From the NCBI RefSeq assembly GCF_900169565.1, contig NZ_LT828648.1, positions 932,876 through 996,875 on the forward strand: a DNA stretch of 64,000 nucleotides. Reading direction: 5' to 3'. The notes beneath the pieces were generated by a model. The model was not told the DNA's origin, did not search any database, and worked only from the letters and a program-made list of their open reading frames with translations. Positions 28,148 to 45,435 of the stretch are shown piece by piece (the stretch's first letter is position 1; each line of letters opens with the position of its first letter). Source of the stretch: Nitrospira japonica (GTDB lineage Bacteria; Nitrospirota; Nitrospiria; Nitrospirales; Nitrospiraceae). A program made the translations under genes and the position numbers.

Positions 28148-28199
28148 TCCGCCCGCCGAAGGTCGGGCGAAATCTGTTCACTATCCAAAGGAGGAGAAA

Positions 28200-28625
28200 A
28201 TGAAACGAAGCGCATCGGCCGTCTGGCAGGGAGATCTGAAGGCCGGCAAAGGAACTGTTTCCACCGAGAGCGGAGTCCTGTCACAGGCCCAATATTCGTT
28301 CGGGACCAGATTCGAGAGCGGCAAGGGCACGAATCCGGAAGAACTCATCGCGGCGGCGCACGCCGGCTGTTTTACCATGGCGCTGTCGGCCCAGTTGGGC
28401 AACGCGGGATTCGCGCCGGAGAAACTCGAAACGACCGCCACGGTCCACTTCGAGAAGCTGGACGCGGGGTGGACGGTCACCAAGATCCACTTGGACGTCA
28501 AGGGCACGGTGCCGAAGGCCGACGCGGCCGCATGGGAAAAGGCGGCGACGGCGGCCAAGACCGGCTGCCCGATCTCACGCCTGCTGAACACGACCATCAC
28601 GATGGACGCAAAGCTCGGAGCGTGA
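28200..28625 (+). CDS. OsmC family peroxiredoxin
   Basis: A 141-aa protein of the OsmC family, thiol-dependent peroxidases that reduce organic hydroperoxides. The two active-site cysteines are in AAHAGCFTMALS (about residue 59) and KTGCPISRLLN (about 124). The length and the opening RSASAVWQGDLKAGKG fit OsmC proper rather than Ohr. AAAGGAGGAG precedes the ATG. It lies 52 bp after the quinoprotein-like gene and may share its transcript. Confidence 0.93.
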   Translation: MKRSASAVWQGDLKAGKGTVSTESGVLSQAQYSFGTRFESGKGTNPEELIAAAHAGCFTMALSAQLGNAGFAPEKLETTATVHFEKLDAGWTVTKIHLDVKGTVPKADAAAWEKAATAAKTGCPISRLLNTTITMDAKLGA

Positions 28626-28746
28626 ATTCTTGTCCGGACTTGAGTCGGAGGGGATTTCTCCGGGACGGTCCACGACCTCGTGACGGACGATCTCGTCGTA
28701 ATGGAGGACGAGGGCCTCGATCGAGTGCAATCGTAAAGGAGCAGCG

Positions 28747-29670
28747 ATGGAGATGAGTCGGGGAGTAAAGACAGTTGGTCAGGGTCGTGCAATCGGACCG
28801 TTCGGCGGGTTCACACGAATGATCATGACCCTCCTGCTCGCGGGTCTGCTGGGGCAGAGCGTGGCCGCTTTGGGCCAGGAAAGCCGTCCGGAAAACGAGA
28901 TCACCAGCCTGGGCGAGGGCTCGTATCTATTTCGCCATCAGTTCCATCAGGCGATTTTCATCACCACTCCCAAAGGTGTCATCGTCACGGATCCCATCAG
29001 CGCGGAGGCGGCGACCTGGCTGAAGAAAGAGATCAAACACTATTCCGACCAGCCGATTCGCTACGTCGTCTACAGCCATCACCATGATGATCACATCACG
29101 GGCGGCAGTCTGTTCGCCGATACGGCGGTATTCGTCAGTCAGGCGGGGGCCAGAGCGAAGATCCGTGAAGCGGCGGATCCTCTCACGCCCCTGCCCGACC
29201 TTACCTTCACGGATCGCATGTCCATCGACCTCGGCGGCAAGCACGTCGAGCTGATCTATGTCGGAAAAAATCATTCGGACAATAGCCTGGTCGTCCTGCT
29301 GCCGGAGCAACGGCTGCTCTTCGCCGTCGATTTCATCCCGGTCGAGACGGTCGCGTACCGCACGATGAAGAGCGACTACCCGGACGACTGGATCGAATCG
29401 CTCAAGCGCGTCGAGCAATTGGATTTCGATCGGCTGGTGCCGGGTCACGGCAAGATCGGGAACAAGGAACACGTACGGATGTTCCGAGGCTATCTGGAGG
29501 ATCTCCGGGCGGCGGTGCAGGAACAGGTGCAGAAAGGGGCGAGCCTCGAGGAGACGAAGAAGGCCGTTCAGCTTCCCAAATACGAACGATGGCAGCGCTA
29601 CGGCGACTGGTTTCCCGAAAATGTGGAAGGAATGTACCGGTATCTGACCCAGCGACGCGAAACGCGGTAA
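28747..29670 (+). CDS. exported metallo-beta-lactamase fold hydrolase
   Basis: A 307-aa protein with an N-terminal hydrophobic segment (MIMTLLLAGLLGQSVAALG), probably a signal peptide. The zinc motif is SHHHDDHITGG near residue 112. Further ligands are the His in GKNHSDNSL, the Asp in FAVDFIP and the His in PGHGK. All ligands for a two-metal site are therefore present. Its closeness to the PQQ genes recalls the zinc metallohydrolases that often accompany exported quinoproteins, but I cannot assign a substrate. The ATG at 28747 has AAAGGAG upstream, and internal ATGs at 28819 or 28825 would give a shorter signal. Confidence 0.85.
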   Translation: MEMSRGVKTVGQGRAIGPFGGFTRMIMTLLLAGLLGQSVAALGQESRPENEITSLGEGSYLFRHQFHQAIFITTPKGVIVTDPISAEAATWLKKEIKHYSDQPIRYVVYSHHHDDHITGGSLFADTAVFVSQAGARAKIREAADPLTPLPDLTFTDRMSIDLGGKHVELIYVGKNHSDNSLVVLLPEQRLLFAVDFIPVETVAYRTMKSDYPDDWIESLKRVEQLDFDRLVPGHGKIGNKEHVRMFRGYLEDLRAAVQEQVQKGASLEETKKAVQLPKYERWQRYGDWFPENVEGMYRYLTQRRETR

Positions 29671-29707
29671 CGGAAAGGCTTCGAAGGACCCCGGTAAGGA
29701 GTGCACC

Positions 29708-30391
29708 ATGCCGCCTGGCAAGATCGTCGTGCTTTTCGATGTGGACAACACGTTGCTCGACAATGACGGAGTGACGGAGGACCTGCGCCGGTATCTGGAG
29801 CAGGAAGTCGGAGCGGAGCCACAAAAGCGGTATTGGGTGCTGTTCGAAGAGTTGCGGCAAGAGCTGGGCTATGCCGATTATCTGGGGGCGCTCCAACGAT
29901 ACCGAATCGAACACCCGCGCGACCCGCATCTGTTGGCAGTATCCCATTTCTTGATCCAGTACCCGTTCGCCGACCGCCTGTACCCCGGCGCGCTCGACGT
30001 GATCGCACAGGCCAAACGAGCGGGCACGGCCGTGATCCTGTCCGACGGGGACGTCGTGTTCCAACCGAGAAAGGTGGAGCGGTCCGGACTACATCACGCC
30101 GTCGACGGGAACGTCCTGATCTACATTCACAAGGAACGGGAACTCGAAGACGTGGAACGGCGGTTTCCGGCCGATCGTTACGTGCTCATCGACGACAAGG
30201 TTCGGATCCTGTCGGCGGTGAAACGTGTGTGGGGTTCCCGCGTGACGACGGTGTTTCCCCGGCAGGGTCACTATGCGCTGGATTTGCAGGATGTCGCCCA
30301 GTTTCCGGTCCCGGATGTGACCGTGAGTGCGATCGGCGATCTGCTGGTTGGAGACCGCTTCGCCCGGGTCCTCAGCGGCGCCGGGCCCTGA
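29708..30391 (+). CDS. HAD-superfamily hydrolase
   Basis: A 227-aa haloacid dehalogenase-type phosphatase. Motif I is LFDVDNTLLDND (the two Asp that attack phosphate), motif II is VILSDGD, and a motif IV-like acidic stretch is YVLIDDKVRIL. A helical cap lies between motifs I and II (residues 20-95). It is cytoplasmic, and the substrate is unknown. TAAGGAG stands before the ATG. It follows the metallo-beta-lactamase gene by 37 bp and is probably in the same transcript. Confidence 0.88.
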   Translation: MPPGKIVVLFDVDNTLLDNDGVTEDLRRYLEQEVGAEPQKRYWVLFEELRQELGYADYLGALQRYRIEHPRDPHLLAVSHFLIQYPFADRLYPGALDVIAQAKRAGTAVILSDGDVVFQPRKVERSGLHHAVDGNVLIYIHKERELEDVERRFPADRYVLIDDKVRILSAVKRVWGSRVTTVFPRQGHYALDLQDVAQFPVPDVTVSAIGDLLVGDRFARVLSGAGP

Positions 30392-30526: not shown

Positions 30527-31498
30527 GTGAAGGGTTTAAGTCGTGAGAGCCGAAAACTGACCGTGAAATCCAGGAGAGGGGGCGCGAGCGCGAGCCGCAA
30601 TCTGATCCTGCTGGGATCCCTCGTCATGAGCGTGTTTCTGGCGCCGTACGGATTTGCAGACGAAGGCCACAGTCAGGGTGCGGCCACTCACTTGAAGGTC
30701 AGCGGCGTCGTCGCCAAGGTTCAGGCGACCCACGTGGTCATCAAGACGCCGTGGGGACAGATGAAGATCGCCTCCCAAGTGCTCCCCAAGGGCCTCGAAG
30801 TGGGAGAAGAAGTCGACATGTGGGTGAATGAAAACAACGCCGTGATCGACGTGCACCGCAAGGGTGATCCGTCCCACTCGCATAAGTTCGTCACAGGCAG
30901 TCTCGCGTATACTTCCACGGACAAGACGGAAATCAAGCTGCAGACCCCCGAAGGGGAAAAGACCTTCGACGTGCAGACTGGCAAATCGAAGCTCTCCTCC
31001 ATCGCGGAAGGCAGTCCGGTCACCGTCGAAGTCAACGAAGAAGGCAAGGTCATCGACGTGCATCGGTTCGACGTGGAGATGACCTTCAACAAGCAGCCGC
31101 GCACCAAGGCCGGGTATCACATTACCGCGCACGGCGTCGTGGAGAAGATTCAATCAGGGGTCGTGGCCGTCAAGACTCCGTCCGCGATGTATCGACTGAA
31201 TCAGAAATCGATGCCGTCCGGCATCAAGGTCGGCGACGAGATCACCCTGTGGGTGAACGAAGAGAATATGGTCATCGATCACCATATGAAGGGTCATACC
31301 CAAGCGCATAGACTGATCTCAGGGAAGCTGATCTATGTCGGTAAGAGTAAGAAGGAGATCAAGCTCTGGACGCCGGAGGGCGAAAAGGTGTTCCCGCTGG
31401 ATCGATTGGAAGTTAAAGCCAAGCCGATCAAAGAAGGGACGCCGGTGACCGTGGAACTGAACGAGCAGGGTGTGGTTATCAACCTCTGGAAGTCCTAA
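30527..31498 (+). CDS. exported four-repeat protein of unknown function
   Basis: A 323-aa protein with a long basic N terminus and a signal-like segment (NLILLGSLVMSVFLAPYGFA). The mature part has four units of about 60-65 residues in an A-B-A-B order. A units share VxGVVxKVQ...VxVKTP and VGxEVxxWVNExNxVID. B units share SGxLxY...KTEIKLxTPEGEK and GxPVTVEVNExGxVI. This is consistent with small OB- or beta-barrel-like repeats. Many His residues cluster between repeats. The GTG at 30527 is chosen since GGAGGAGG lies seven bases upstream. No family is recognised. Confidence 0.8.
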   Translation: MKGLSRESRKLTVKSRRGGASASRNLILLGSLVMSVFLAPYGFADEGHSQGAATHLKVSGVVAKVQATHVVIKTPWGQMKIASQVLPKGLEVGEEVDMWVNENNAVIDVHRKGDPSHSHKFVTGSLAYTSTDKTEIKLQTPEGEKTFDVQTGKSKLSSIAEGSPVTVEVNEEGKVIDVHRFDVEMTFNKQPRTKAGYHITAHGVVEKIQSGVVAVKTPSAMYRLNQKSMPSGIKVGDEITLWVNEENMVIDHHMKGHTQAHRLISGKLIYVGKSKKEIKLWTPEGEKVFPLDRLEVKAKPIKEGTPVTVELNEQGVVINLWKS

Positions 31499-31514
31499 TT
31501 CCGGTTCCTGCAAT

Positions 31515-31551
31515 GCTTCCGGGATGATGCGGGATCGCGTCTCCCGGAAGC
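31515..31551. terminator. hairpin after the four-repeat protein
   Basis: Arms GCTTCCGGGA (31515-31524) and TCCCGGAAGC (31542-31551) pair perfectly with a 17-base loop, 17 bp after the gene's stop. No T tract follows. It probably marks the transcript end before the sigma-54 activator gene. Confidence 0.5.
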
Positions 31552-31645
31552 CCCTCCCCGCTCTCATATCCCTCTGGGTGAGCCAGGAACCCCGGCCGTC
31601 TGCGGTACTTGAGCCCGTCTCGGACGATGGGCCATACTGGGGGCC

Positions 31646-34228
31646 ATGGAAGAAGCCGGCTCCCCTTGCGAAACCCTCTCGGAGCGATACCAGGCCCTCT
31701 TGGAAGTCTCTGAAGCGATCTCACAACACCGGGATCTTCACGATCTTGCGCGTGATCTGGCCCGACGACTCCCCCGCGTCATTCATGTGAATTTCGTCGC
31801 GCTCTCCCTGCACGATCCTGAGGGCAAGACGATGCGCTTGCATACCATCCAGGCCAATGTGCCCGCCGATCTGATCGGCGGCCATGTAGAACCGGTCGAC
31901 GAGACGCCCACCGGCCTGGTCTGGCAGACTCAGGAACCGGTGCTCGTGCCGGACCTTGCCCAGGAAACACGATGGCCGGACGTCGTCGGACGGATGAAGG
32001 AGGACGGCACGAAGTCGTTTTGCGTCGTCCCGCTGACTACTGCGGTCCGGCGGTTGGGCGCCATGGGATTTGCCAGCTTGCGCACGGGCGCATACGGCGA
32101 AGCGGACCTGGAGTTTCTCCTCCAGGTGGGCAAGCAGGTGGCCGTGGCCGTCGATAACGTCCTGCATCATCAGGATCTGGCGCTCGAGCGCGACCGCTTG
32201 AGGTCGCTGCTGGAGGTATCCGAATCCATCGCCTCCCATCGTGATCTCGAGGAGCTGTTCCGGGATCTGGCGAGGAATCTCCCGCAGGTGGTCCCGTTCG
32301 ATTACATCAACGCGGTCCTGCACGATGCGGGACGCAACGTCATGCGACTGTGGTTGTTGGTGACGGCGCAGCCCAGTACGATCAGGCCGGGCCTGGAACT
32401 CCCGATCGACGAGTCCCCGGGTGGATTGGTCTGGAAGACCCAGCAATCGTTGATCGTCAACGATATCGCGCAGGAACGGCGTTTTCCCAAGTTGATGGAG
32501 CTGCTCAGGGAGAATGGCGTGCAATCCTTCTGCGCGGTCCCGCTCACGACGGCGCAGCGCCGGCTGGGCGCCATGGGGTTCGGCAGCATGCGTCCGAGGG
32601 CCTACAGCGAGCACGAGCTGGGGTTCATGCGGCAGGTGGCCAAGCAGGTGGCGGTGGCGGTGGACAACGCACTCAACTCTGAAACCGCGCTGGCCTACCA
32701 GCGGCAATTGGCTCGCGAACGGGACCGGCAGCGGTTACTGCTCGAAGTGAACAATGCCATAGTGGCCCACTTGGAGCTCCGGGAACTGCTGCAAGCGATT
32801 TCAGCCTGCCTGAGCCGCGTGATGCCACACGATCTGGCCGGGTTCGCCCTCTACGATTCCTCGACCGGACAGCTGGTGGCACACGCCCTCGACTTTCCCC
32901 GCAATCAGGACTTCGTGGAGAAAGGGGTTTCCATTCCTCTGGAGGGAACTCCGGAGGGCCGGGCCGTGACGACCCGCCGTACGGTGCTCATTCGGAACCT
33001 GGATCCGGCGGAATTTCCGGCCGAAGTTGTCAAAAGGGCGGTGGCCGAGGGATTGAAATCCGGCTGCGCCGTCCCGCTGGTGTCTCATGGGCATGTGCTG
33101 GGAACATTGAGCGTCGGCAGCCTTCGCCACGAGGCGTTTACGCAGGACGATGCCGAACTGCTCGGACAGATCGGCGCACAGGCCGCGATTGCCGTCGAGA
33201 ACGGTCTGGCCTATCGGGAGATCGCGGATCTGAAAGACCGCTTGAGCAAGGAGAAACTCTATCTCGAGGACGAGATCCGGACCGAATACAATTTCGAGGA
33301 GATCGTCGGCGACAGCACCGCCTTGCAAAAGGTCCTCAAACAGGTGGAAATCGTGGCGCCGACGGATTCGACCGTGCTGATTTTGGGCGAGACCGGTACG
33401 GGCAAGGAATTGCTGGCTCGCGCCATTCACAACCTCAGCGGGCGACGGGAACGAACGTTCGTCAAGATGAACTGCGCGGCGATTCCCACGGGATTGCTCG
33501 AAAGCGAGTTGTTCGGGCACGAGAAAGGGGCGTTCACCGGAGCGATTGCCACCAAGATCGGACGCTTCGAGCTGGCGGATCAGGGAACCGTCTTTCTCGA
33601 CGAGGTCGGAGAGATTCCGCTGGAGCTTCAAGTGAAGTTGTTGCGCGTACTCCAGGAGCAGGAATTCGAACGGCTGGGGAGCACCCGCACCGTTCGCGTC
33701 AATGTCCGGGTGATCGCCGCCACGAATCGTGACCTGGTCAGGCTGGTGGACGAGAAGGGGTTTCGCAGCGATCTTTATTACCGGTTGAATGTGTTTCCGA
33801 TTACCGTGCCGCCGTTGCGCGAGCGGTCAGAGGACATTCCCGCATTGACCAGACACTTTGCCCAGAAATTCGTCCAGCGGATGAAGAAGCGTATCGAGAC
33901 GATTCCCTCCGATGCCATGAAGGCGCTGCAGGCCTATCCCTGGCCCGGTAACGTGCGCGAACTGGAAAATTTCATCGAGCGGGCGGTGATTCTGACGCAC
34001 GGTCCCGACTTGGTTGTGCCGATTGGAGAACTGAAGCGCTCGCCCGCGGCGGTCAATCACTCCGCTCCGACGACCCTCGAAGAAGCCGAACGGGAGCACA
34101 TCCTGAAAGCGCTCCGGGATGCCCGCTGGACGATCGGAGGGCCAACGGGCGCCGCTGCGAAGCTCGGAATGAAGCGGACGACCCTCCAGTCCAAGATGCA
34201 GAAACTCGGCATCGCCAGGCCTGCCTAA
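31646..34228 (+). CDS. sigma-54-dependent transcriptional activator with three GAF domains
   Basis: NtrC-family enhancer-binding protein of 860 aa. Three GAF sensor domains occupy about residues 15-175, 185-350 and 360-525. Each begins with a helix like LLEVSEAIxxHRDLxxL and ends with VAVAVDNxL-type helices. The AAA+ domain has Walker A GETGTGKELLARAIH (about residue 580), the sigma-54 contact loop GAFTGA (about 628), and Walker B TVFLDEVGEI. The C-terminal Fis-type helix-turn-helix is GPTGAAAKLGMKRTTLQSKM. There is no receiver domain, so small ligands or redox state are the likely input, as in FhlA or NorR. Candidate target sites lie at 34266 and 36510. Confidence 0.95.
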   Translation: MEEAGSPCETLSERYQALLEVSEAISQHRDLHDLARDLARRLPRVIHVNFVALSLHDPEGKTMRLHTIQANVPADLIGGHVEPVDETPTGLVWQTQEPVLVPDLAQETRWPDVVGRMKEDGTKSFCVVPLTTAVRRLGAMGFASLRTGAYGEADLEFLLQVGKQVAVAVDNVLHHQDLALERDRLRSLLEVSESIASHRDLEELFRDLARNLPQVVPFDYINAVLHDAGRNVMRLWLLVTAQPSTIRPGLELPIDESPGGLVWKTQQSLIVNDIAQERRFPKLMELLRENGVQSFCAVPLTTAQRRLGAMGFGSMRPRAYSEHELGFMRQVAKQVAVAVDNALNSETALAYQRQLARERDRQRLLLEVNNAIVAHLELRELLQAISACLSRVMPHDLAGFALYDSSTGQLVAHALDFPRNQDFVEKGVSIPLEGTPEGRAVTTRRTVLIRNLDPAEFPAEVVKRAVAEGLKSGCAVPLVSHGHVLGTLSVGSLRHEAFTQDDAELLGQIGAQAAIAVENGLAYREIADLKDRLSKEKLYLEDEIRTEYNFEEIVGDSTALQKVLKQVEIVAPTDSTVLILGETGTGKELLARAIHNLSGRRERTFVKMNCAAIPTGLLESELFGHEKGAFTGAIATKIGRFELADQGTVFLDEVGEIPLELQVKLLRVLQEQEFERLGSTRTVRVNVRVIAATNRDLVRLVDEKGFRSDLYYRLNVFPITVPPLRERSEDIPALTRHFAQKFVQRMKKRIETIPSDAMKALQAYPWPGNVRELENFIERAVILTHGPDLVVPIGELKRSPAAVNHSAPTTLEEAEREHILKALRDARWTIGGPTGAAAKLGMKRTTLQSKMQKLGIARPA

Positions 34229-34265
34229 GCACAGGTTTCTCTCTCAGTCGCCCCATATCCGCCTC

Positions 34266-34299
34266 TGCCGAATCTTCGGCAGGTGCCGACATCTCGGCG
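34266..34299. promoter_or_regulatory. paired palindromes, candidate enhancer site of the sigma-54 activator (locus 1)
   Basis: TGCCGA-N4-TCGGCA (34266-34281) and TGCCGA-N4-TCGGCG (34284-34299), centres 18 bp apart. They lie about 145-165 bp upstream of the start predicted from the -24/-12 promoter at 34410. The same pair with the same spacing recurs at 36510. Confidence 0.7.
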
Positions 34300-34409
34300 G
34301 CGTCACATCAAGAACCGGATTCTTCCTCTCGCAAATTCACAGTGGATTTCCGCCCGATCCCTTCATGGTTTCCAGCGGTTGAATCTGCCCCGTCGGTGGT
34401 CCGCTTCTC

Positions 34410-34425
34410 TGGAATGGTCATTGCC
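34410..34425 (+). promoter_or_regulatory. sigma-54 (-24/-12) promoter of the DedA-rhodanese operon
   Basis: TGGAATGGTCATTGCC has the invariant GG (34411-34412) and GC (34423-34424) ten bases apart and the usual TTGC at -12. The predicted start near 34436 gives a 44-base leader before the DedA gene. Confidence 0.7.
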
Positions 34426-34479
34426 ATGCCGGACGATGGCGGCCGATTCGATCGCAATTGACGCATACGGGAGATCACC

Positions 34480-35436
34480 ATGAATGAGATCGTCGGATTC
34501 TTGATGGAACACGGAGCGCTCGTCGTGTTTGCCACCGTCCTGGCGGAACAAATCGGTCTACCGGTGCCCGCCGTGCCGTTTTTGGTCGCGGCCGGTGCCC
34601 TAGCGGCTGCCGGCCATCTGAATCTGGCCGTCGCCGCCGGCGCGGCGGTGCTGGCGTCGCTCGCAGGCGATCAGGTGTGGTTCGAGTTGGGCCGCCGCCG
34701 CGGTCGTCAGGTATTGGGCTGGCTCTGCCGGATCGCGATCGAACCGGATTCATGCATCCGCCGAACCGAAGACTTTTTCAGCCGGCACGGTGCTCGATCT
34801 CTGATCGTGGCGAAATTCATTCCGGGATTGAGCACGATCGCCCCTCCCCTTGCCGGTATCGTAGGGCTACGCTTGTCCCAGTTCCTGCTGTTCAACGGTG
34901 TCGGCACGATTCTCTGGGTGGGATCCGGACTGGGTCTGGGCTATCTGTTTGCCGACCAACTTGAACGGGTGTTGGCCCTCAGCGCCAGTGTTGGGCCCAC
35001 CATCGGTATGCTCGCAGTGGGGGCAGCGGCCGGCTATGTCGCCTGGAGAGTCCTCAGCCGATACCGCGGCGACGATCCGGTTCCTCACGTCACGCCCCGG
35101 GTGGTGCGGGAAAAACTTCGGGCTGGCGAGCGGCCGGTCATCGTGGATTTGCGGCCGCTCGGCGCGCGTCGAGAGAAGGCGGGGATCCCCGGAGCCCTGC
35201 CGATGTCGGCCGACGAGATCGTCGCCGGACAGCGCGACCTGCCTCGCGATCGAGACGTGATTCTGTATTGTGATTGCCCGGGCGATGCGGGAAGCATCGC
35301 GATCGCGCGGGTCCTCCGTTCGAAGGGTCATGCCAGGGTATGGCCGCTTGCGGGGGGTATCGAGGCCTGGCGTGCCATGGACGTCGAGGAACGCGAGACC
35401 GAACGTGCGTCGGCCAGTCACCCCATGGTGGCGTGA
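34480..35436 (+). CDS. DedA membrane protein fused to a rhodanese domain
   Basis: A 318-aa fusion. Residues about 1-205 are a DedA/SNARE-associated domain with four to five membrane segments and the family signature AEQIGLPVPAVPFLVAAGALA. AKFIPGLSTIAPPLAGIVG is the second conserved block. Residues about 215-305 form a rhodanese domain whose catalytic Cys lies in VILYCDCPGDAGS, and GGIEAW closes it. DedA proteins move lipids or protons at the inner membrane. Rhodanese adds a sulfurtransferase or redox function on the cytoplasmic side. The ATG follows GGGAG by five bases, downstream of a sigma-54 promoter. Confidence 0.9.
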   Translation: MNEIVGFLMEHGALVVFATVLAEQIGLPVPAVPFLVAAGALAAAGHLNLAVAAGAAVLASLAGDQVWFELGRRRGRQVLGWLCRIAIEPDSCIRRTEDFFSRHGARSLIVAKFIPGLSTIAPPLAGIVGLRLSQFLLFNGVGTILWVGSGLGLGYLFADQLERVLALSASVGPTIGMLAVGAAAGYVAWRVLSRYRGDDPVPHVTPRVVREKLRAGERPVIVDLRPLGARREKAGIPGALPMSADEIVAGQRDLPRDRDVILYCDCPGDAGSIAIARVLRSKGHARVWPLAGGIEAWRAMDVEERETERASASHPMVA

Positions 35437-35481
35437 GGACGACGCGCTCACCACTACGATGTAGAGAGGGGGCAGGACGAA

Positions 35482-36444
35482 ATGGAACTGAAAATTCCGA
35501 GCCGCGAACAGGCGTACTGGGGATTGCGGGCCATGAAGACGGTCGCCATGGCGGACGGCGCGCTCGATGATGCAGAGGTGCATTTGATGACCGCGGTCCA
35601 GCGAGTGTTCGGAACCGATCATCCCCTGGAGCAGTTGGAACCGATTACGCCGGCCGAATTGGCCGCGGCATTGCCTGATCGGCAGATCCGGCGCCAATTG
35701 GTGAACGGGTTCATTGTGATGTCACTGATCGACCGCGATGCCAGTAAGGCGGAAGCCGACCTCGTCAGTCAGTTCGCGCATGCGCTGGAGGTCAGTTCTC
35801 CGGAAGTGAACGATCTGCGGCACGTCGTAGAACGAGAGATGTTTCACCTCCGCCTCGACCTCGCCCGCAGGGTCTGGCTCAGAGAGAAAGTTAAAGAAAT
35901 TTGGGAGACAAACGGCATCCGTGGAATCTATCGATTCATGCGAGGCATGGTCGGACGATACGAGGATGCTGCGCTCGCGGGCCGCTACAAGGCCCTTGAA
36001 CAGTACCCGACGGGCTCTCTGGGCCGCGCCTATTGGGAATACTGCAGAACGAACGGGTTTGCCTTTCCCGGCGAGAAAGGCGGAGCCGCGGAACCGATTC
36101 TCTTTCACGACTGCGCACACGTCTTGTCCGGCTACGGAACCGACCCTGAAGGGGAAGTGCAAGTGGCCTGCTTCAGCGCCGGTTTTCAGCGGCGCGATCC
36201 GTTTCTCTTTGTCTTCTTCGTCCTGCTGCAGTTTCACGTCGGTGTCCGGATGACGCCGATCACCAAGGCCAGGACTGGATTTTTTGATCCGGAGAAGGCG
36301 CTGATCGCGCTGAGGCGAGGGGCGGCGATGAATGTGGATCTCAACAATGGGTGGGACCCTTGGCCAGTGCTGCGAGACCAGGTGGAGGACCTCAGACGGC
36401 GATACAATATTCCTCCTAAGGAATCATTCCAGCCGTTCCGGTAG
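35482..36444 (+). CDS. TerB-like plus COQ4-like two-domain protein
   Basis: A 320-aa cytoplasmic or membrane-associated protein. Residues about 10-125 resemble a TerB-like acidic helical domain (MADGALDDAEVHLMTAVQRV). Residues about 150-290 resemble COQ4: YPTGSLGRAYWEYC, then the diagnostic HDxxH-x11-E pattern in FHDCAHVLSGYGTDPEGE, and FVLLQFHVGVRM. COQ4 takes part in ubiquinone synthesis, recently as a decarboxylating hydroxylase. In this organism menaquinone is more likely, so the substrate is open. It is 45 bp after the DedA-rhodanese gene and probably cotranscribed under sigma-54. Confidence 0.75.
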   Translation: MELKIPSREQAYWGLRAMKTVAMADGALDDAEVHLMTAVQRVFGTDHPLEQLEPITPAELAAALPDRQIRRQLVNGFIVMSLIDRDASKAEADLVSQFAHALEVSSPEVNDLRHVVEREMFHLRLDLARRVWLREKVKEIWETNGIRGIYRFMRGMVGRYEDAALAGRYKALEQYPTGSLGRAYWEYCRTNGFAFPGEKGGAAEPILFHDCAHVLSGYGTDPEGEVQVACFSAGFQRRDPFLFVFFVLLQFHVGVRMTPITKARTGFFDPEKALIALRRGAAMNVDLNNGWDPWPVLRDQVEDLRRRYNIPPKESFQPFR

Positions 36445-36472
36445 TCCTCTGTCGCGCAAACAGACCCTCAAT

Positions 36473-36501
36473 GAGTTCACTCATGCGACGACAATGAACT
36501 C
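36473..36501. terminator. weak inverted repeat after the TerB-COQ4 gene
   Basis: GAGTTCA (36473-36479) and TGAACTC (36495-36501) pair around a 15-base loop, 29 bp after the stop. No T tract is present. It lies just before the second enhancer pair and may separate the two transcripts. Confidence 0.3.
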
Positions 36502-36509
36502 GCTGCCTG

Positions 36510-36543
36510 TGCCGAAGTCTCGGCGTCTGCCGGAATATCGGCA
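36510..36543. promoter_or_regulatory. paired palindromes, candidate enhancer site of the sigma-54 activator (locus 2)
   Basis: TGCCGA-N4-TCGGCG (36510-36525) and TGCCGG-N4-TCGGCA (36528-36543), centres 18 bp apart, exactly as at 34266-34299. They stand about 130-145 bp before the start predicted from the -24/-12 promoter at 36637. Confidence 0.7.
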
Positions 36544-36636
36544 GGCAGACAATCGTCACAGCCGAAGAGGAGTGAGGAGAGATGAGTAAGGGTTAGATAA
36601 ACCAAGAGGTTACGAAGTGTGTTCGTGCACGGTTAG

Positions 36637-36652
36637 AGGAACGGCCCTTGCC
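36637..36652 (+). promoter_or_regulatory. sigma-54 (-24/-12) promoter of the STAS-RND operon
   Basis: AGGAACGGCCCTTGCC has GG (36638-36639) and GC (36650-36651) ten bases apart with TTGC at -12. It closely resembles the locus 1 promoter, including the CATG that follows. The predicted start near 36663 is 18 bases before the STAS gene. Confidence 0.7.
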
Positions 36653-36680
36653 ATGAGTGAACATAGAAAAGGAAACGACC

Positions 36681-36998
36681 ATGTTGAAAATCACCGAGCA
36701 GCGAGTCGAGGAATCTGAATCGATGTTGCTTGTCCTGGAAGGACGCTTGGTTGGTCCCTGGGTGGGAGAGGTCGATACCTGTTGGAATCGGATGGCACCC
36801 GAGCAGCAGAAGCGAACGGTGATCGACTTAAGCAGCGTCACGTTCGTCGATGGCGAAGGGAAGGCGCTGCTGACGCGAATGTGGAAGACCGGCGCAACTC
36901 TTCGGGCGACAGGATGTTTAATGCGGTGTTTGGTTGAGGAGATTACTGGAGTGGAGCAACGGAAAGCCTCCTGTAAGATGGATGAACACGTCGGGTGA
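36681..36998 (+). CDS. STAS-domain protein (anti-sigma factor antagonist-like)
   Basis: A 105-aa single STAS-like domain. It has a beta strand and Gly turn (LLVLEGRLVGPWVGEVDTCW), then TVIDLSSVTFVDGEGKALLTRM, which is the region where the phosphorylatable Ser of SpoIIAA-type antagonists stands. Here the sequence is FVDGEG, with no Ser at that point, so regulation by phosphorylation is unlikely. The ATG at 36681 (AAAGGAAA upstream) is chosen because the sigma-54 start would lie at about 36663, after an alternative GTG at 36657. A membrane peptide and the RND genes follow. Confidence 0.8.
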   Translation: MLKITEQRVEESESMLLVLEGRLVGPWVGEVDTCWNRMAPEQQKRTVIDLSSVTFVDGEGKALLTRMWKTGATLRATGCLMRCLVEEITGVEQRKASCKMDEHVG

Positions 36999-37015
36999 TC
37001 GGAAAGGAGCGGCAT

Positions 37016-37150
37016 ATGCAACATTTAGCCTTGTCGATGAGTACCCTGTCGGTGTTCCTGGCGATCGTTCTGATCCCTGCCCTGCCGAGGCTCCGGCCCG
37101 CCAGAAGATTGGCCGCATCGAAGATCAGAGCAGCGATCCGGCGAACGTAA
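37016..37150 (+). CDS. 44-aa single-span membrane peptide
   Basis: Small ORF with a strong ribosome binding site (GGAAAGGAG six bases before the ATG). Residues 4-24 are hydrophobic (LALSMSTLSVFLAIVLIPALP) and the remaining 20 residues carry nine Arg/Lys and no acid (PRLRPARRLAASKIRAAIRR), so the product would span the membrane once with a basic cytoplasmic tail. It lies 17 bp after the STAS gene and 18 bp before the RND adaptor gene. Small membrane proteins near RND pumps, such as AcrZ, can modulate them, but similarity to AcrZ is not claimed. Confidence 0.6.
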   Translation: MQHLALSMSTLSVFLAIVLIPALPRLRPARRLAASKIRAAIRRT

Positions 37151-37168
37151 CGAACGGAGTGTATTGCC

Positions 37169-38356
37169 ATGACATACATGAATAATCGACCGATCGGACT
37201 CATTACGGTGTTGGCGGCTGGCCTGGTCATGGCCGCGGCGTCGGGATGCAAGGAGCAGGCGGATTCGGCTCCAGCTCAACAATTGCCTCAGGTCGAGGTG
37301 ATCGCGGTTTCGACCCAAACCGTCCCGGACGAGCCGGAATTCATCGGGCAGGCCGAAGCCTCCCGTCCTGTCGAGATTCGCTCGCAGGTGACGGGCATTC
37401 TCAAGGCCGTGATGTATTCGGAAGGTCGTGAGGTCAAGAAGGGAGATCGGCTCTACCAGATTGATCCCGTTCCCTTTCAAGCCGCTGCTGCCAGCGCGAA
37501 AGCCAAGATTGCGCAAGCCGAAGCCAAGGTCGTGCAGGCGAAGCAGGACCTGGCGCGGGTGAAACCGCTGCTGCTCGAGCAGGCGGTGAGCCAAAAAGAC
37601 GTGGATGACGCGGTCGCGGAAGATCTTTCGGCCAAGGCGGCCCTGCAGGGCGCCAAGGCCGATCTCATCAAGGCGCAGTTCGATCTGGACAACACGCTTA
37701 TCACGGCTCCGATCGACGGCATGATCGAGCGGAGTCGGTATTACGAGGGCCGTCTGGTCTCCGCTCAAACGGATTTATTGACCGTGGTTCACCGTGTCGA
37801 CCCGATGTATGTGGTCGTGAGCGTGCCGGAAACGTTTTTTCTCAAGCGTTCACACGACATCGAAGCGAAAAAGATCAACCATCCAGGCGCCTACGAATTG
37901 CGCGGTGCCCTGACCTTCATGGACGGGACGGCCTACCCCTATGAGGGAGTTCTGGATCTCATGGAACCGGGCATGCGGACCGAGACCGGCTCACGCATCG
38001 AACGCATGACCTTTCAAAATCCTCAGCGAACCCTGCTGCCGGGACAGTTCGTGAAGGTGAAGTTTAAAGGGGACGCCAAGCCGAACGCCGTCCTGATACC
38101 TCAGCGGTCCGTCTTGCAAGGCCCTCAGGGACCGTTCGTGTATGTCGTGGGATCGGAGGAGCGGATCGAAATACGGCCCGTGGAAGCGTCTGTTTGGCAA
38201 GGGGATCAGTGGCTGATCGACTCCGGTCTCAAGGCCGGTGAGCGAGTCGTCGTCAACGGTCTGATGAAGATCGGGCCCGGTGCGCCGGTGAAAGCCGTGC
38301 CGATGGGAACCGTGGCCGAGCCGGATGCCGCATCAGCGCCGGCGAAGCAGGGATAA
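37169..38356 (+). CDS. RND efflux periplasmic adaptor (AcrA/MexA-like)
   Basis: A 395-aa membrane fusion protein linking the RND pump to the outer-membrane channel. The N terminus is a lipoprotein signal with lipobox AAASGC (Cys27). The lipoyl half-motif is RPVEIRSQVTGILKAVMYSEG, followed by a coiled-coil hairpin (AKAKIAQAEAKVVQAKQDLA) of about 80 residues. The second lipoyl half is LITAPIDGMIERSRYYEG, and a beta-barrel and membrane-proximal domain follow. It is the first gene of the adaptor-pump-channel set and probably belongs to the sigma-54 transcript that starts before the STAS gene. Confidence 0.93.
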   Translation: MTYMNNRPIGLITVLAAGLVMAAASGCKEQADSAPAQQLPQVEVIAVSTQTVPDEPEFIGQAEASRPVEIRSQVTGILKAVMYSEGREVKKGDRLYQIDPVPFQAAAASAKAKIAQAEAKVVQAKQDLARVKPLLLEQAVSQKDVDDAVAEDLSAKAALQGAKADLIKAQFDLDNTLITAPIDGMIERSRYYEGRLVSAQTDLLTVVHRVDPMYVVVSVPETFFLKRSHDIEAKKINHPGAYELRGALTFMDGTAYPYEGVLDLMEPGMRTETGSRIERMTFQNPQRTLLPGQFVKVKFKGDAKPNAVLIPQRSVLQGPQGPFVYVVGSEERIEIRPVEASVWQGDQWLIDSGLKAGERVVVNGLMKIGPGAPVKAVPMGTVAEPDAASAPAKQG

Positions 38357-38362
38357 CGCGTC

Positions 38363-41300
38363 ATGATGTCGCACATCTTCATCGACCGGCCGATCATGGC
38401 GTCCGTGGTGTCCATCATCATCGTCGTGATGGGACTGCTCTCCGTCCAGTTTCTGCCGATCGCCCAATTTCCTGAGATCACGCCGCCGGTCGTCCAGATT
38501 GACGCCGATTATCCCGGTGCGAGCGCGGAAGTCGTCGCGGAGTCGGTCGCCCGCGCCATCGAAGTGCAGCTTCCCGGCATCGATAACCTCGTCTATTTCG
38601 ACAGTACGAGCAGCAACGACGGGCACGTCACCATCAAGCTCACCTTCGAAATCGGAACCGATCCGGACATCGCCCAGGTCCAGACGCAGAACCGGGAAAA
38701 GCTCGCGGAACCCCAGTTGCCTCCGGAAGTCATCCGGCAGGGAGTCAGCGTCAAGAAAATGTCGCCTGATTTGGTTGGGGTCATCGCGCTGAAATCCACC
38801 GACGCCAATCACGACGCGGTGTTCCTGTCAAATTATGCGATTCTGAGATTGGTCGACAACATACGCCGCGTCAAAGGCGTGGGCGATGCGATGGTCTTCG
38901 GCCAGCAAAACTACAGCATGCGCATCATCTTGAATCCGCTGCTCATGGCCAAGCTCGGCCTGACGCCCACGGACATTGCGGTGATCGTCAGGGAACAGAA
39001 TCGCGACTATCCGGCCGGCACGATCGGTCGCGAGCCGGCACTGAAGGGCACCGAGTTGACGATTCCGGTCATCACCAAGGGGCGCCTGACCGAAGTGAAG
39101 GAGTTCGAAGAATTGATCGTGCGCGCCCTTCCGGACGGCTCGCTCGTGCGATTGAAAGACGTCGCTCGCATCGAGCTGGGCGCACAGTCCTATGCTCTTG
39201 AAGGTCGCTGGAACAGCAGCCCGACCACATTCATCGTCACGTTTTTGGCTCCGGGAGCCAACGCATTGGACACCGTACGGCGTACACGGGCCGAGATGGA
39301 CGAATTGGCCAAGAGTTTTCCGCCCGGCGTGTCCTACGACATTCCCTACGACACCACGCGATTCATCGAGGTGTCCATCAAGGAAGTGGTGAAGACGCTG
39401 CTGGAAGCGATGGTCCTGGTGGTGCTGGTCGTCTATCTGTTCCTCCAGAGTTGGCGTGCGACGATTATTCCCACGGTGGCGGTTCCCGTCTCGCTGATCG
39501 GCACATTTGCGGGTCTGTACGCCCTGGGCTTCTCGATCAACACCATCACACTCTTCGGAATGGTGTTGGCGATCGGTATCGTCGTCGACGACGCGATTGT
39601 CGTGGTCGAAAACGTCGAACGCCACATGCGGGAAGACAAAGTCTCGGCGAAGGAAGCGGCCAAACGCGCCATGAACGAGGTGACGGCGCCGGTTATCGCC
39701 ATCGTGCTGGTGTTGGTCTCGGTCTTCGTACCGGTCGGCTTCGTCGGCGGGATCACCGGGCAGCTCTATAAGCAGTTCGCGGCGACGATCGCGATTTCAG
39801 TGACGGTTTCCGGCTTCGTCGCCCTGACGCTCAGCCCCGCCTTGTGCGCCATGGTCTTGGTCCATCAACACGGCGAGCGGGGAAAGTTCTGGATCTGGTT
39901 CGACCGGGTGTTCGGCCGGACGCAGCATGGCTATACCAGCGCTGTGGCCGGCCTGGTCGTTCGGCCTCTTCGCGTGATGCTGGTGTTCGGCCTCATCCTT
40001 CTCGTCACCTTCGGGATGTTCAGCACGCTACCGCGCAGTTTCCTGCCCGAGGAGGACCAAGGGTACTTTATCGTGGTGGCGCAGTTGCCCGACGGCGCGT
40101 CCAAGCAACGGACGGATGCGGTGCTGGAGCGAATCGAACGTTTTTTCCAGGCCAATCCTGCTGTCCATTCGACCGACGCCATGTCCGGACAGAACTTTGT
40201 GTTCGGCACCAGAGGCCCGAATTCAGCCACCATGTTCGTTCCCTTGCACTTGTGGGATCAGCGCAAAGAACCGCAGTACCATGTCCAATCGTTGATCGGC
40301 ATGGCTTATGGGGAGTTTGCCAAGATTCCCGAGGCCCTGCTCCTGGCGTTCAACGCTCCGTCGCTCCGAGGCGTGGGCACCGTCGGTGGATTCTCTGCGC
40401 AACTGCAGGATCCGAGCGGCGGAGACTTCAAAAAGTTTGCCATGGTGGCCCAGCAATTCATCGAGCGGGCCAAGAAGGAGCCGGCTCTCGGCCAGGTCGG
40501 GACGAATTTCCGCGTTTCCGCACCGCGTGTCTACGCGCATGTGAACCGCGAACGGGCCAAAGCCCTGGGCGTGCCGATCTCGGACATCTTCGATACGCTA
40601 CAAGCGTATTTTGGGACGTTCTACATCAATGATTTTCTGAAGTTCGGGCGTATTTATCACGTGCAGACCGAGGCGGACGCCGAATTTCGATCCAAGCCGC
40701 AGGATATTTCCAAGATCTATGTCCGTGCGCAGAACGCACAGGGGACCAACATGATCCCACTGGACACGGTCGTCACGACGGAATACCAGAGCGGTCCCGA
40801 CCCGGTGAACCACTTCAATGGGTACAACACGGCGCTCGTGCTTGGTTCTGCCGCACCCGGCTACAGTTCGGGGCAGGCGCTAGAAGCGCTGGATCACGTG
40901 GCGAAGGAGGTCCTGGAACCGCAAGGGTACTCGATCGACTGGAGCAATATTTCATTTCAAGAGCGACGGGTGGGCAGCCAATCCAATCTTGTCTTCGTCA
41001 TCGGCCTGCTGATGGTCTTTTTGGTGTTGGCGGCCCAGTTCGAGAGTTGGGTCGTGCCCTTCGCGGTCATTTTGGCCGTGCCGTTCGCGATTTTTGGAGC
41101 CTTGGCGGCGGTCTGGGTGCGGGGATTCTCGAACGATATCTATTTCCAGATCGGTCTCGTCACGTTGATAGGCCTCGCGGCCAAGAACGCCATTCTGATC
41201 GTGGAGTTCGCCAACACGCGGTATGAAGCCGGACGTCCGCTGATCGAGGCGGCGGTGGAGGCCGCACGCCTGCGATTCCGTCCCATCATCATGACGTCGA

Positions 41301-41533
41301 TGGCGTTTATTTTCGGCATGGTGCCCTTGGTGTTCGCCGCCGGCGCGGGGGCCGCCAGCCGGCAGTCGATCGGCACCGGAGTCTTGGGCGGCATGCTTGC
41401 CGCTACGTTCTTGGCGATCTTTTTCGTGCCGCTGTTTTATGTGCTCATCAGGAAGTTGACCGTTCGTCGTTCGGAGGCCGCACCAGCGCATGCGCCGGCA
41501 CCGGCAATGGCCTCTGCAGAGGAGGGACTCTGA
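38363..41533 (+). CDS. RND multidrug efflux permease (AcrB/MexB-like, HAE1)
   Basis: Inner-membrane proton-driven pump of 1056 aa, the normal length for HAE1 transporters. The N terminus HIFIDRPIMASVVSIIIVVMG starts membrane segment 1. The two periplasmic loops (about residues 30-340 and 570-870) are present. The proton-relay pair of Asp is in GMVLAIGIVVDDAIVVVENVER (segment 4), and the Lys/Thr partner region is GLAAKNAILIVEFA. The gene begins six bases after the adaptor, and its stop is followed at once by the channel gene. The substrate range cannot be predicted. Confidence 0.97.
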   Translation: MMSHIFIDRPIMASVVSIIIVVMGLLSVQFLPIAQFPEITPPVVQIDADYPGASAEVVAESVARAIEVQLPGIDNLVYFDSTSSNDGHVTIKLTFEIGTDPDIAQVQTQNREKLAEPQLPPEVIRQGVSVKKMSPDLVGVIALKSTDANHDAVFLSNYAILRLVDNIRRVKGVGDAMVFGQQNYSMRIILNPLLMAKLGLTPTDIAVIVREQNRDYPAGTIGREPALKGTELTIPVITKGRLTEVKEFEELIVRALPDGSLVRLKDVARIELGAQSYALEGRWNSSPTTFIVTFLAPGANALDTVRRTRAEMDELAKSFPPGVSYDIPYDTTRFIEVSIKEVVKTLLEAMVLVVLVVYLFLQSWRATIIPTVAVPVSLIGTFAGLYALGFSINTITLFGMVLAIGIVVDDAIVVVENVERHMREDKVSAKEAAKRAMNEVTAPVIAIVLVLVSVFVPVGFVGGITGQLYKQFAATIAISVTVSGFVALTLSPALCAMVLVHQHGERGKFWIWFDRVFGRTQHGYTSAVAGLVVRPLRVMLVFGLILLVTFGMFSTLPRSFLPEEDQGYFIVVAQLPDGASKQRTDAVLERIERFFQANPAVHSTDAMSGQNFVFGTRGPNSATMFVPLHLWDQRKEPQYHVQSLIGMAYGEFAKIPEALLLAFNAPSLRGVGTVGGFSAQLQDPSGGDFKKFAMVAQQFIERAKKEPALGQVGTNFRVSAPRVYAHVNRERAKALGVPISDIFDTLQAYFGTFYINDFLKFGRIYHVQTEADAEFRSKPQDISKIYVRAQNAQGTNMIPLDTVVTTEYQSGPDPVNHFNGYNTALVLGSAAPGYSSGQALEALDHVAKEVLEPQGYSIDWSNISFQERRVGSQSNLVFVIGLLMVFLVLAAQFESWVVPFAVILAVPFAIFGALAAVWVRGFSNDIYFQIGLVTLIGLAAKNAILIVEFANTRYEAGRPLIEAAVEAARLRFRPIIMTSMAFIFGMVPLVFAAGAGAASRQSIGTGVLGGMLAATFLAIFFVPLFYVLIRKLTVRRSEAAPAHAPAPAMASAEEGL

Positions 41534-41534
41534 C

Positions 41535-42962
41535 ATGCGGACCATTCTGTTCTTGCTGTCGGCAGTGGTGCTAGCCTCGTGCGCGATCGGGCCCGATTAC
41601 CAACGGCCGGCGGATCCCGCGATCGACAAATTCCGCATGGCGGAAACCACGACCGACGCCAACTCCATCGCCAACATGCCGTGGTGGGAGCTGCTGAAGG
41701 ACGAAGAGCTCCAGCGCCTGGTACGCACGGCTTTGGACGAGAACCGGGATCTCCGTCGCGCCATTGCCAGCGTCGAGGAGTTTCAATCGCGGGTGTTCAT
41801 TTCGCGGATGGATTACGCGCCGCAGATGACCGGGACGTTCTACGCGCCGACGGCCAAGAACAGCAGCTTCGCCTTTCCCGGATTTCCCAATCCATTCAAC
41901 TACTATCTGCAAGGGAACCTGACCTGGGAGCTCGACATCTGGGGCCGCATTCGTCGGTCCAACGAAGCCGCGCGCGCGGATCTGCTGTCCAAAGAGGAGA
42001 GCCGTCGTGCGGTGGTGCTGCAGCTGGTGAGCGGCGTGGCGGAGGCCTATTTCGATCTCCTCCAGTTCGACATGCAATTGCAGATCGCGCGAGATACCGT
42101 CAAATCCTGGGAAGAGTCCGTGCGGATCGCGCAGGCGCGGTTGCGCCAGGGTATGACCAACAAGCTCGATTTGGATCAGTTTGAGTCGGAGCGGGCCAAC
42201 GCGGTGGCGAGAACGGCCGAACTGGAACGTCTCATGGTCCAGAAGGAAAATCAGATCAGCGTGCTGCTCGGTCACAGTCCGAAACAAATCACGCGCGGCC
42301 GTTCGCTCACTGAACAAGTGATTCCGCCGGAAGTGCCGCCGGGCCTGCCCTCCGACTTGCTCCAGCGAAGGCCGGATATTGTGCAGGCCGAACGGGATCT
42401 TGCCGCGTCCACGGCGCGGATCGGCATGGCGAAGGCCGATCGATTTCCGAAGGTCTCTCTCACGGGCCTGCTCGGCATCGCAAATCCGCAGATCACCAAT
42501 CTCTTTACGCCAGGTAGCGACTTTGCCGCTTTGGGCCCGACCATCACGGGGCCGCTCTTGAACGCGCAAGTTCTGGGATTCCAGCAAGAGGCCGCCGAAG
42601 CCCAAGCGCGACAGAGCCTGGCGCAATATGAACAATCGGTCCTGGTGGCGTTCCGGGAAGTCGAAGACGCGCTCGTGGCCGTTCGTACGGTCCGGGATCA
42701 GCGTCAAGCGCAGATTCAACGAGTGGACGCCCTGCGCTCCGCGTTCCGGCTCGCCGAACTGCGGTACAAGGGCGGACTCGCCAGCTATCTCGACGTGTTA
42801 GTGGCGCGGAGAACGCTCTTTGAAGCGGAGCTGTCGCTGACGGAAACCCATCGGCTGCATCTCGTGTCGGTCGTTCAGCTCTACAAGGCATTGGGTGGCG
42901 GGTGGTCGCCTGAAACGGCGGGCGAGAATTCGGGCTCGACGGGTCAGAAGAGCACCGGATAA
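41535..42962 (+). CDS. outer-membrane efflux channel (OprM/NodT-like lipoprotein)
   Basis: A 475-aa TolC-type channel of the NodT/OprM group. A signal with lipobox VLASC precedes AIGPDYQRP, the usual start of the mature protein. Two repeated outer-membrane efflux domains are visible: VSGVAEAYFDLLQFDMQLQI and PDIVQAERDLAASTARIGMA with KADRFPKVSL. ATG 41535 follows GAGGAGGG, and a longer frame from 41490 overlaps the pump gene and has no such signal. With the adaptor and pump it forms a complete tripartite system. Confidence 0.94.
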   Translation: MRTILFLLSAVVLASCAIGPDYQRPADPAIDKFRMAETTTDANSIANMPWWELLKDEELQRLVRTALDENRDLRRAIASVEEFQSRVFISRMDYAPQMTGTFYAPTAKNSSFAFPGFPNPFNYYLQGNLTWELDIWGRIRRSNEAARADLLSKEESRRAVVLQLVSGVAEAYFDLLQFDMQLQIARDTVKSWEESVRIAQARLRQGMTNKLDLDQFESERANAVARTAELERLMVQKENQISVLLGHSPKQITRGRSLTEQVIPPEVPPGLPSDLLQRRPDIVQAERDLAASTARIGMAKADRFPKVSLTGLLGIANPQITNLFTPGSDFAALGPTITGPLLNAQVLGFQQEAAEAQARQSLAQYEQSVLVAFREVEDALVAVRTVRDQRQAQIQRVDALRSAFRLAELRYKGGLASYLDVLVARRTLFEAELSLTETHRLHLVSVVQLYKALGGGWSPETAGENSGSTGQKSTG

Positions 42963-43012: not shown

Positions 43013-43216
43013 ATGTCCAAGCGAACGGCGAAGCAACCCGGGTCTTCGGGGATCAAACGCGTCATCTTCGGCACCGGCGGAAACGGGCCGAATGCCCAGG
43101 ACCTTCAACAGCAAATCGCCCTCCGCGCCTACGAACTCTACCTAGAGCGAGGTGCCGTCGACGGCCGGGCCGAAGACGATTGGTTTCGGGCCGAACGAGA
43201 AGTGCGCGGGCAATAA
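43013..43216 (+). CDS. DUF2934 domain protein
   Basis: A 67-aa soluble protein with a short basic N terminus (SKRTAKQPGSSGIKR) and a C-terminal DUF2934 helix pair: IALRAYELYLERGAVDGRAEDDWFRAEREV. The Arg-Ala-Tyr-Glu and Asp-Asp-Trp-x-x-Ala-Glu positions are the family signature. No function is established. It has a good ribosome binding site (GGAGG) and stands alone 50 bp after the efflux channel. Confidence 0.85.
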   Translation: MSKRTAKQPGSSGIKRVIFGTGGNGPNAQDLQQQIALRAYELYLERGAVDGRAEDDWFRAEREVRGQ

Positions 43217-43238
43217 GCCCATCTTGGTGAATCCTTCG

Positions 43239-43841: not shown

Positions 43842-43847
43842 GCCGGT

Positions 43848-44477: not shown

Positions 44478-44501
44478 CCGTCCGCCTTACCCTCATCCAT
44501 C

Positions 44502-45380: not shown

Positions 45381-45435
45381 GAGATCGGGTTGACCGTATG
45401 ACATCGGCATCCACCGCGAGAGACAAGAGCGCGTC

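Follow-up and report, generated by a model that had tools for sequence, protein, structure and literature searches.

Paired palindromes beside a GAF-domain activator of Nitrospira japonica: a predicted sigma-54 switch for efflux and membrane genes

We analysed a 64,000-nucleotide stretch of the Nitrospira japonica genome (contig NZ_LT828648.1, positions 932,876 to 996,875; this whole stretch is called the window) in which the gene of an FhlA-like sigma-54 activator is followed by two pairs of palindromes, each ahead of a predicted sigma-54 promoter. This sensor protein very probably binds the palindrome pairs and switches on efflux and membrane genes through sigma-54. The full reading that the sequence suggests, to which we give a probability of roughly 0.87, is that the FhlA-family activator would bind the paired palindromes and turn on the two neighbouring operons via sigma-54, as an envelope response to toxic small molecules. 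The sites, their geometry and conservation, their association with a residue of the activator's helix-turn-helix (HTH) and the target genes are read from the sequence itself, and by the same kind of evidence this wiring recurs beside relatives of the activator in many related bacteria. In the proposed mechanism, the GAF domains would sense a small molecule or a redox signal, and the Fis-type HTH would bind the paired TGCCGA-N4-TCGGCA sites upstream of the two operons. The DNA would probably be bent by IHF, and the activator would loop over a fixed distance to the sigma-54 polymerase, which it would open by ATP hydrolysis. Transcription would then start in one operon with a DedA-rhodanese and a TerB-COQ4 gene and in another with a STAS gene and an RND efflux pump, and the physiological role would most likely be to export and detoxify harmful small molecules at the envelope.

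The two palindrome pairs noticed in an earlier, sequence-only reading of this DNA were confirmed at the same coordinates and with the same 18-bp spacing between centres. Pair 1 occupies 34266-34299 (TGCCGAATCTTCGGCA-GG-TGCCGACATCTCGGCG, with palindromes at 34266-34281 and 34284-34299) and pair 2 occupies 36510-36543 (TGCCGAAGTCTCGGCG-TC-TGCCGGAATATCGGCA, at 36510-36525 and 36528-36543); these and all features placed below lie on the forward strand. Both are putative enhancers of the form TGCCGA-N4-TCGGCA, with the geometry TGC-N10-GCA. A scan of the whole genome (4,084,817 bases) for the 18-bp pair with up to three mismatches found exactly two places, both of them the window pairs, and none in the control. 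Leaving base 3 of each half-site free returned the same two places only (control 0), and a pair spaced by 19 bp was absent from the same scan at up to three mismatches. Pairs widespread far from sigma-54 promoters, which the sequence-only reading had named as evidence that would count against it, were thus looked for genome-wide, and the only two pairs are both linked to predicted promoters. Taken singly, the palindrome has 19 distinct occurrences (23 rows; control 5 rows). The 15 that stand outside the pairs all lie inside stop-to-stop open frames of 330-1299 nt, a kind of frame that does not by itself establish a gene. In the 330 bp scanned downstream on the matching strand or strands, none of them reaches a sigma-54-like score of 9 at pair-type distances; one of the 15 scores 9.5 at 183 bp. 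A wider regulon in this genome was rejected, since the lone palindromes lie in open frames and neither the 19-bp nor the base-3-free search gave an extra pair. One lone palindrome, TGCCGGCAGATCGGCA, stands in the window at 7350-7365, within an open frame and without a good sigma-54 site.

Both pairs lie a short way past a stop codon, and their palindromes are each able to fold into a 6-bp stem, as would be expected if these sequences were transcription terminators or copies of a mobile repeat. We rejected this explanation and regard it as very improbable, because no terminator-like match falls at either pair (four were found elsewhere, with 5.0 expected), the 18/19-bp spacing and the distance to the sigma-54 site are fixed, and the genome holds only two copies of the pair.

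Behind each pair, a sigma-54 -24/-12 promoter was predicted with an approximate weight matrix, at 34410-34425 (TGGAATGGTCATTGCC) for the DedA operon and at 36637-36652 (AGGAACGGCCCTTGCC) for the STAS-RND operon. Both are of the GG-N10-GC form, with scores of 13.4 and 12.1. The promoter motifs are therefore present as previously claimed, but the distance of 100-140 bp given for them fits only when it is counted from the start or the middle of the pair; from the pair end it is 110 bp for the DedA promoter and 93 bp for the STAS promoter. A search of 31480-38400 for strict sigma-70 consensus promoters returned none, with 1.3 expected in shuffles.

For comparison, 60 regions and 78 named loci were fetched, and pair matches with the same context were merged, leaving 78 unique pairs. 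On one side of 71/78 a sigma-54-like score of at least 9 was found (14% at random points), and 57/78 had a score of at least 12 beside them (3.3% at random points, either side). A free scan of 2.2 Mb of loci, allowing spacings of 14-25 bp and pair-to-sigma-54 distances of 60-179 bp, gave 128 unique matches, 82 of them at 18 bp, 28 at 19 bp and 18 at other spacings, counts that are biased by the many regions (L069-L112) fetched because of an 18-bp pair; the reversed control gave seven matches, none at 18 or 19 bp. When only the 61 loci chosen by the activator alone were considered, the spacing was 18 bp in 33, 19 bp in 16 and another value in 12.

The sigma-54 site lay 92-99 or 105-112 bp past the pair in 95 of 110 cases. 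These distances form two classes with medians of 95 and 109 bp, and the two window promoters (93 and 110 bp) represent both. An IHF-like site, described below, starts about 56 or 69 bp past the pair, and the difference between the classes therefore lies upstream of it. Over 102 promoters, the gap between the two classes is not a whole number of helical turns. Enhancers of sigma-54 promoters are usually held to be tolerant of distance; the regulon of this activator would be a case of strongly conserved enhancer-promoter distance.

The segment between pair and promoter carries further elements. In the window, a third half-site, TCGTCAC, lies 9 bp past pair 2 (36553..36559), and an IHF-like site, AACCAAGAGGTTA (36600..36612), with one mismatch, lies 37 bp before the -24 box of the STAS promoter. 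A weak IHF-like site, TTTCCAGCGGTTG (34369..34381), with two mismatches to WATCAANNNNTTR, which we take to be the IHF consensus, lies 41 bp before the -24 box of the DedA promoter. We compared 63 linkers of 92-99 and 104-111 bp (65 before near-identical ones were removed) with shuffles that keep single-base content only; as the linkers were preselected by length, this analysis bears on their content and cannot test distances. The sequence TCG[GT]CAC was present exactly in 34/63 linkers, against 0.9 in the shuffles, and when one mismatch is allowed the half-site matches gather 8-9 bp past the pair (46 of them). IHF-like sites with at most one mismatch occurred in 21/63 linkers (1.4 in shuffles) and with at most two in 41/63 (15.3 in shuffles), mostly starting 37-41 bp before the -24 box. 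On the reverse strand the IHF pattern stayed at background level, at 2/63 with at most one mismatch against 1.6 in the shuffles. The genome of the window has four HU/IHF genes. The candidate for IHF-alpha scores 125.5 bits against a cut-off of 111 (NF001401) and 118.8 against 120.25 (TIGR00987), and the candidate for IHF-beta 111.5 against 115 and 98.5 against 119.95 in two models. The extra half-site and the IHF-like site in the linker, like the two fixed classes of distance and the kinship with FhlA, go beyond the sequence-only reading.

The activator gene spans 31646..34228 and encodes 860 aa, identified by profile searches and by the GAFTGA motif in the translation. Its domains follow the order GAF (31-171), GAF (200-339), GAF (376-518), AAA+ (553-719) and Fis-type HTH (810-854). 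The PF00158 match scores 242.7 bits, with the GAFTGA loop present in the sequence, the HTH_8 match scores 31.1 bits against a cut-off of 22, and no receiver domain was found among its domain matches; it is thus, as had been proposed, a receiver-less sigma-54 activator with three GAF domains and a Fis-type HTH. The FhlA equivalog model NF011958 is its best NCBIfam match, yet the score of 611.4 bits falls below the cut-off of 830, and the NifA equivalog model TIGR01817 gives 458.8 bits against 528.85. The model scores therefore define it as a sigma-54 activator (bacterial enhancer-binding protein) and not as an equivalog of FhlA or NifA. Its closest named relatives come from Nitrospira and 'Nitrospirae' assemblies, with up to 77% identity. 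One cysteine per GAF domain is well kept in non-gap alignment rows (C126 in 35/37, C296 in 61/77, C474 in 69/76); these residues may be a redox handle, which we offer as no more than a lead. The genome contains one rpoN gene. Nitrospira moscoviensis NSP M-1 has two copies of the activator (L140 and L154), and the site beside the L140 copy is without a recognised target.

That the pairs belong to this activator is supported by their distribution in the 61 genomes that were searched for both. Some activator match is present in all 61, and for this reason we set a threshold of E <1e-150 for a clear relative. With at most one mismatch, the pair was found in 21/30 genomes with a clear activator relative and in 1/31 without one; with at most two the figures were 22/30 and 4/31, and with at most three, 25/30 and 9/31, where the reversed-pattern control adds eight matches over the 61 genomes. 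The pair at up to two mismatches has 45 places in these genomes; a listed activator gene is found within 40 kb (our own limit) of 34 of them, and the other 11 are on contigs that have no such gene. A figure of 26/26 for well-assembled genomes, which were chosen among those with sites, was not used as support. For activators at least 60% identical, a site with a sigma-54 promoter was present anywhere in the locus in 53/57 and within 800 bp downstream in 39/57.

The palindromes could instead be recognised by another sigma-54 activator or by a repressor, with the adjacent FhlA-like protein acting elsewhere. The genome indeed has 27 PF00158 rows, 24 of them strong, and among the matches listed, three other proteins cover the region from the third GAF domain to the HTH at 39-45% identity; moreover, the pairs follow gene ends, where a repressor could act too. 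We consider this explanation improbable, given that the pair tracks the activator across genomes and mostly lies near it, and that base 3 of the half-site goes with a residue in the recognition helix of the activator itself, as follows.

The 330 bp downstream of 98 activator copies (those with less than 400 bp downstream were dropped) were searched for TGnC dyads spaced by 18 or 19 bp, blind to base 3. At a score threshold of 11, set by us, 45/98 activators had a dyad, against 0/98 in the control. Base 3 of the half-site (TGnCGA) went with residue x in the RTTLx segment of the recognition helix, which is Gln in the window activator (RTTLQSK). With Gln at x (34 activators), base 3 was C in 130/135 half-sites, and with Asn (7 activators) it was A in 25/28; with His (3 activators) it was T in 6 and A in 6 of 12, and with Ile (1 activator) T in 3/4. 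Counted per activator and including sites elsewhere in the locus, Gln went with C in 51/52, and C was found in 1/9 of the others, one of which (L126) offered no half-site that could be counted; the Fisher test gives p 2.7e-8, with no correction for kinship. The activator of L125, with TLLSK, has TGTCGAGATATCGACA downstream when read by eye. FhlA of E. coli has Leu at x (RTTLLSR), and TGTCGA/TCGACA half-sites, which FhlA presumably binds, can be seen by eye in the hycA-hypA gap, where they do not make up a 16-bp dyad. The association of residue and base ties the protein to the site, with shared ancestry still a possible cause. Together with the distribution over 61 genomes, it upholds the earlier proposal of a local sigma-54 regulon governed by the adjacent GAF activator.

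The genes behind the window promoters were assigned by domain and profile searches. The first operon encodes a DedA (VTT) membrane protein fused to a rhodanese domain (34480..35436, 318 aa; domain search) and a TerB-COQ4-like protein (35482..36444, 320 aa). In the latter, the COQ4 Pfam score is 19.8 bits, below the cut-off of 22.9; HDxxHx11E is the COQ4 motif, and its residues (H209, D210, H213 and E225) are invariant in 15/15 orthologues. The structure model of this protein has a mean pLDDT of 54 with a poor COQ4 half, and no fold search was made with it; a sequence search of solved structures gave only Alr8543, at E 0.72. The second operon begins with a stand-alone STAS-domain protein (36681..36998, 105 aa). 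Its Pfam score is 19.8 bits, below the cut-off of 29.2, and the assignment rests on a structure model (pLDDT 88.7) that Foldseek matches to RsbV, MlaB and SpoIIAA with TM-scores of about 0.5-0.7. Classical anti-anti-sigma proteins carry a phosphorylated Ser in their STAS domain; in the alignment of this family (MLKIT...LEGRLAGPWV...DxxGK) the residue at that position is variable, and Ser only in some members. A poorly conserved small hydrophobic open reading frame follows (37016..37150, 44 aa). Short hydrophobic frames of 32-56 aa occur in 10/25 of the gaps between STAS and adaptor genes with hardly any likeness in sequence, and a conserved small peptide at this place was rejected for that reason. 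Profile searches identified an RND periplasmic adaptor (MFP; 37169..38356), an AcrB-type RND permease (38363..41533) and an outer-membrane efflux protein (OEP; 41490..42962); the permease exceeds curated cut-offs, with 1358.9 against 1250 bits (NF000282) and 1270.2 against 940.35 (TIGR00915). The earlier assignment of the controlled genes thus holds by sequence for DedA-rhodanese, TerB and the AcrB-type RND genes, and falls below the Pfam cut-offs for COQ4 and STAS.

Across the relatives, the main targets are two different RND pumps and STAS, followed by DedA-rhodanese. Within 1.3 kb of 102 unique promoters, the first recognised gene was the adaptor of the second pump in 23, STAS in 22, DedA-rhodanese in 17, the window-type adaptor in 3 and TerB-COQ4 in 2, while 2 promoters run off the contig. 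On the same strand within 7 kb of these promoters we found STAS in 58, the second-pump adaptor in 40, its permease in 39, an outer-membrane protein in 35, the window-type adaptor in 30, the window-type permease in 25, DedA in 20 and TerB-COQ4 in 12. The second RND pump is about 30% identical to that of the window and fits best in the RND subfamily NF033617 (914.9 against 1250 bits, in a copy cut by the contig end). The sequence-only reading had also supposed that a single signal tunes the membrane, a quinone-like pathway and efflux together; this idea was not supported, as TerB-COQ4 follows 12/102 promoters within 7 kb and a quinone action, suggested by the COQ4-like half of one protein only, is unsupported. 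A STAS gene lies on the same strand within 900 bp of 15/98 activator copies and anywhere in the locus of 62/98. In 13 loci labelled Acidobacteriota, STAS is within 1.2 kb of the activator, and several of these have TGACC or TGACA dyads. In 16 loci (L111:478-759 and 15 others) a gene close behind such a promoter encodes a Cys-rich protein of some 95 aa with a weak likeness to zinc ribbons.

The same mechanism might serve carbon or redox housekeeping rather than defence against toxic compounds, an alternative that concerns the role and leaves the mechanism untouched. None of the three, RND pumps, STAS or DedA, points specifically to drug stress, and CbrB controls an RND-like operon under carbon limitation (PMC6296734). 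On the other side, genes for DoxX, pirin, zinc alcohol dehydrogenase, short-chain dehydrogenase, cupin and methyltransferase stand within 3.2 kb behind some promoters, each in 2-7 loci, and of these DoxX, pirin and the alcohol and short-chain dehydrogenases argue, short of proof, for detoxification. The same flavour, again not amounting to proof, is given by OsmC, a nitroreductase and a base-excision glycosylase among the window neighbours. We hold the housekeeping role to be a real contender, with clearly less than an even chance. The neighbouring genes at 27492-30391 and 43152-46167 encode, among others, OsmC, two metallo-beta-lactamase-fold proteins, a HAD hydrolase, a nitroreductase, an HhH-GPD base-excision glycosylase and a short-chain dehydrogenase, which suggests a detoxification island.

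Several observations weigh against the proposed regulation, or against its extension to the family. At many promoters the IHF match is weak; this holds for the DedA promoter of the window, which is also without a half-site at the usual place. Of the 11 places where a pair is on a contig without an activator, four belong to genomes without a clear activator (G013, G015, G027 and G033), and among activators less than 60% identical the fixed-form site was found anywhere in the locus in 13/41. No pair over the threshold was found within 330 bp downstream of 53/98 activators, and none with Thr, Leu, Ser or Arg at x reached it. Exceptions to the residue-base rule were L120 (Ile, mostly C), L145 (Gln, half T) and L183 (Asn, G). 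The tree test could draw on 5 changes and on 2 independent pairs with good support (sign test p 0.5); the direction is the same in 1.8/2 of these pairs on average and never opposite, which is too few for significance, and kinship alone could therefore mimic the link. The only full-score 16-bp dyad in E. coli, TGCCGATGAAATGTCA, lies in the hycB-hycA gap and is not the TGTCGA pair. No target was recognised within 1.3 kb of 33/102 promoters. Several of the Acidobacteriota dyad loci score poorly for sigma-54 before STAS, and the extension to that group is therefore weaker.

With these points in mind, we put forward only tentatively, at somewhat under even odds, that the sequences reflect an ancient sigma-54 regulon for efflux and envelope defence, shared by Nitrospirota and Acidobacteriota, in which one helix residue would set base 3 and enhancer, IHF site and promoter would keep to one of two fixed geometries that differ by about 14 bp. 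The regulon-wide code proposed with it, which we likewise think slightly more apt to fail than to hold, would pair Gln with C, Asn with A and perhaps Leu/Ile with T, and would reach Acidobacteriota through activator-STAS neighbours with diverged palindromes.

Enhancer palindromes combined with IHF and a sigma-54 promoter are a textbook arrangement, known for NifA, FhlA and CbrB, the last being the regulator of the CbrAB two-component system. The window activator shares 44.7% identity with E. coli FhlA over its own C-terminal two thirds (residues 295-860) and resembles it in the half-sites of the hycA-hypA gap; it differs in having a further GAF domain, TGCCGA half-sites and efflux and membrane targets. 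Formate hydrogenlyase genes were absent from the two window operons, the relatives and the rest of the genome not having been searched. CbrB of Pseudomonas putida drives an RND-like operon (PP2810) whose GG-N10-GC promoter is served by three subsites and by IHF (PMC6296734), a layout with upstream subsites, an IHF site, the same promoter form and an RND-like target that resembles the one predicted here. The regulon of CbrB is large, whereas the window protein is a GAF activator of the one-component type and its regulon is local. The TGT-N10-ACA sites of NifA (PMC6615313, PMC6296734) are similar in their TGY-N10-RCA geometry and in IHF-dependent activation, which is predicted for the present regulon; in contrast, the sites of this regulon consist of two complete palindromes spaced by 18/19 bp and a further half-site, and the protein is below the NifA cut-off. 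In the reconstructed regulons of Clostridiales, most sites lie 100-250 bp upstream and many targets carry more than one; in fifteen groups the sites are TGT and ACA repeats separated by 10-12 bp, which are likened there to FhlA and NifA (PMC6615313). The available main text on the sigma-54 regulome of D. vulgaris does not contain 'efflux' or 'RND' (PMC4641369), and what was available of PMC10599522 has no bearing on the regulon. A description of the efflux regulon of this activator was not found in the literature searched, mostly without subscription journals.

The type of wiring is thus already known, and the residue-base rule and the fixed geometry are its most notable parts here. Nitrospira are nitrite oxidisers and comammox bacteria, and an unnamed FhlA-like regulator of this genus and its relatives becomes a predicted efflux switch with defined sites, partners and targets. 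The rule offered here, by which one HTH residue corresponds to one operator base, is testable. If true, it would give this activator family a readable one-residue DNA code, and the regulon would be predictable from the protein alone.

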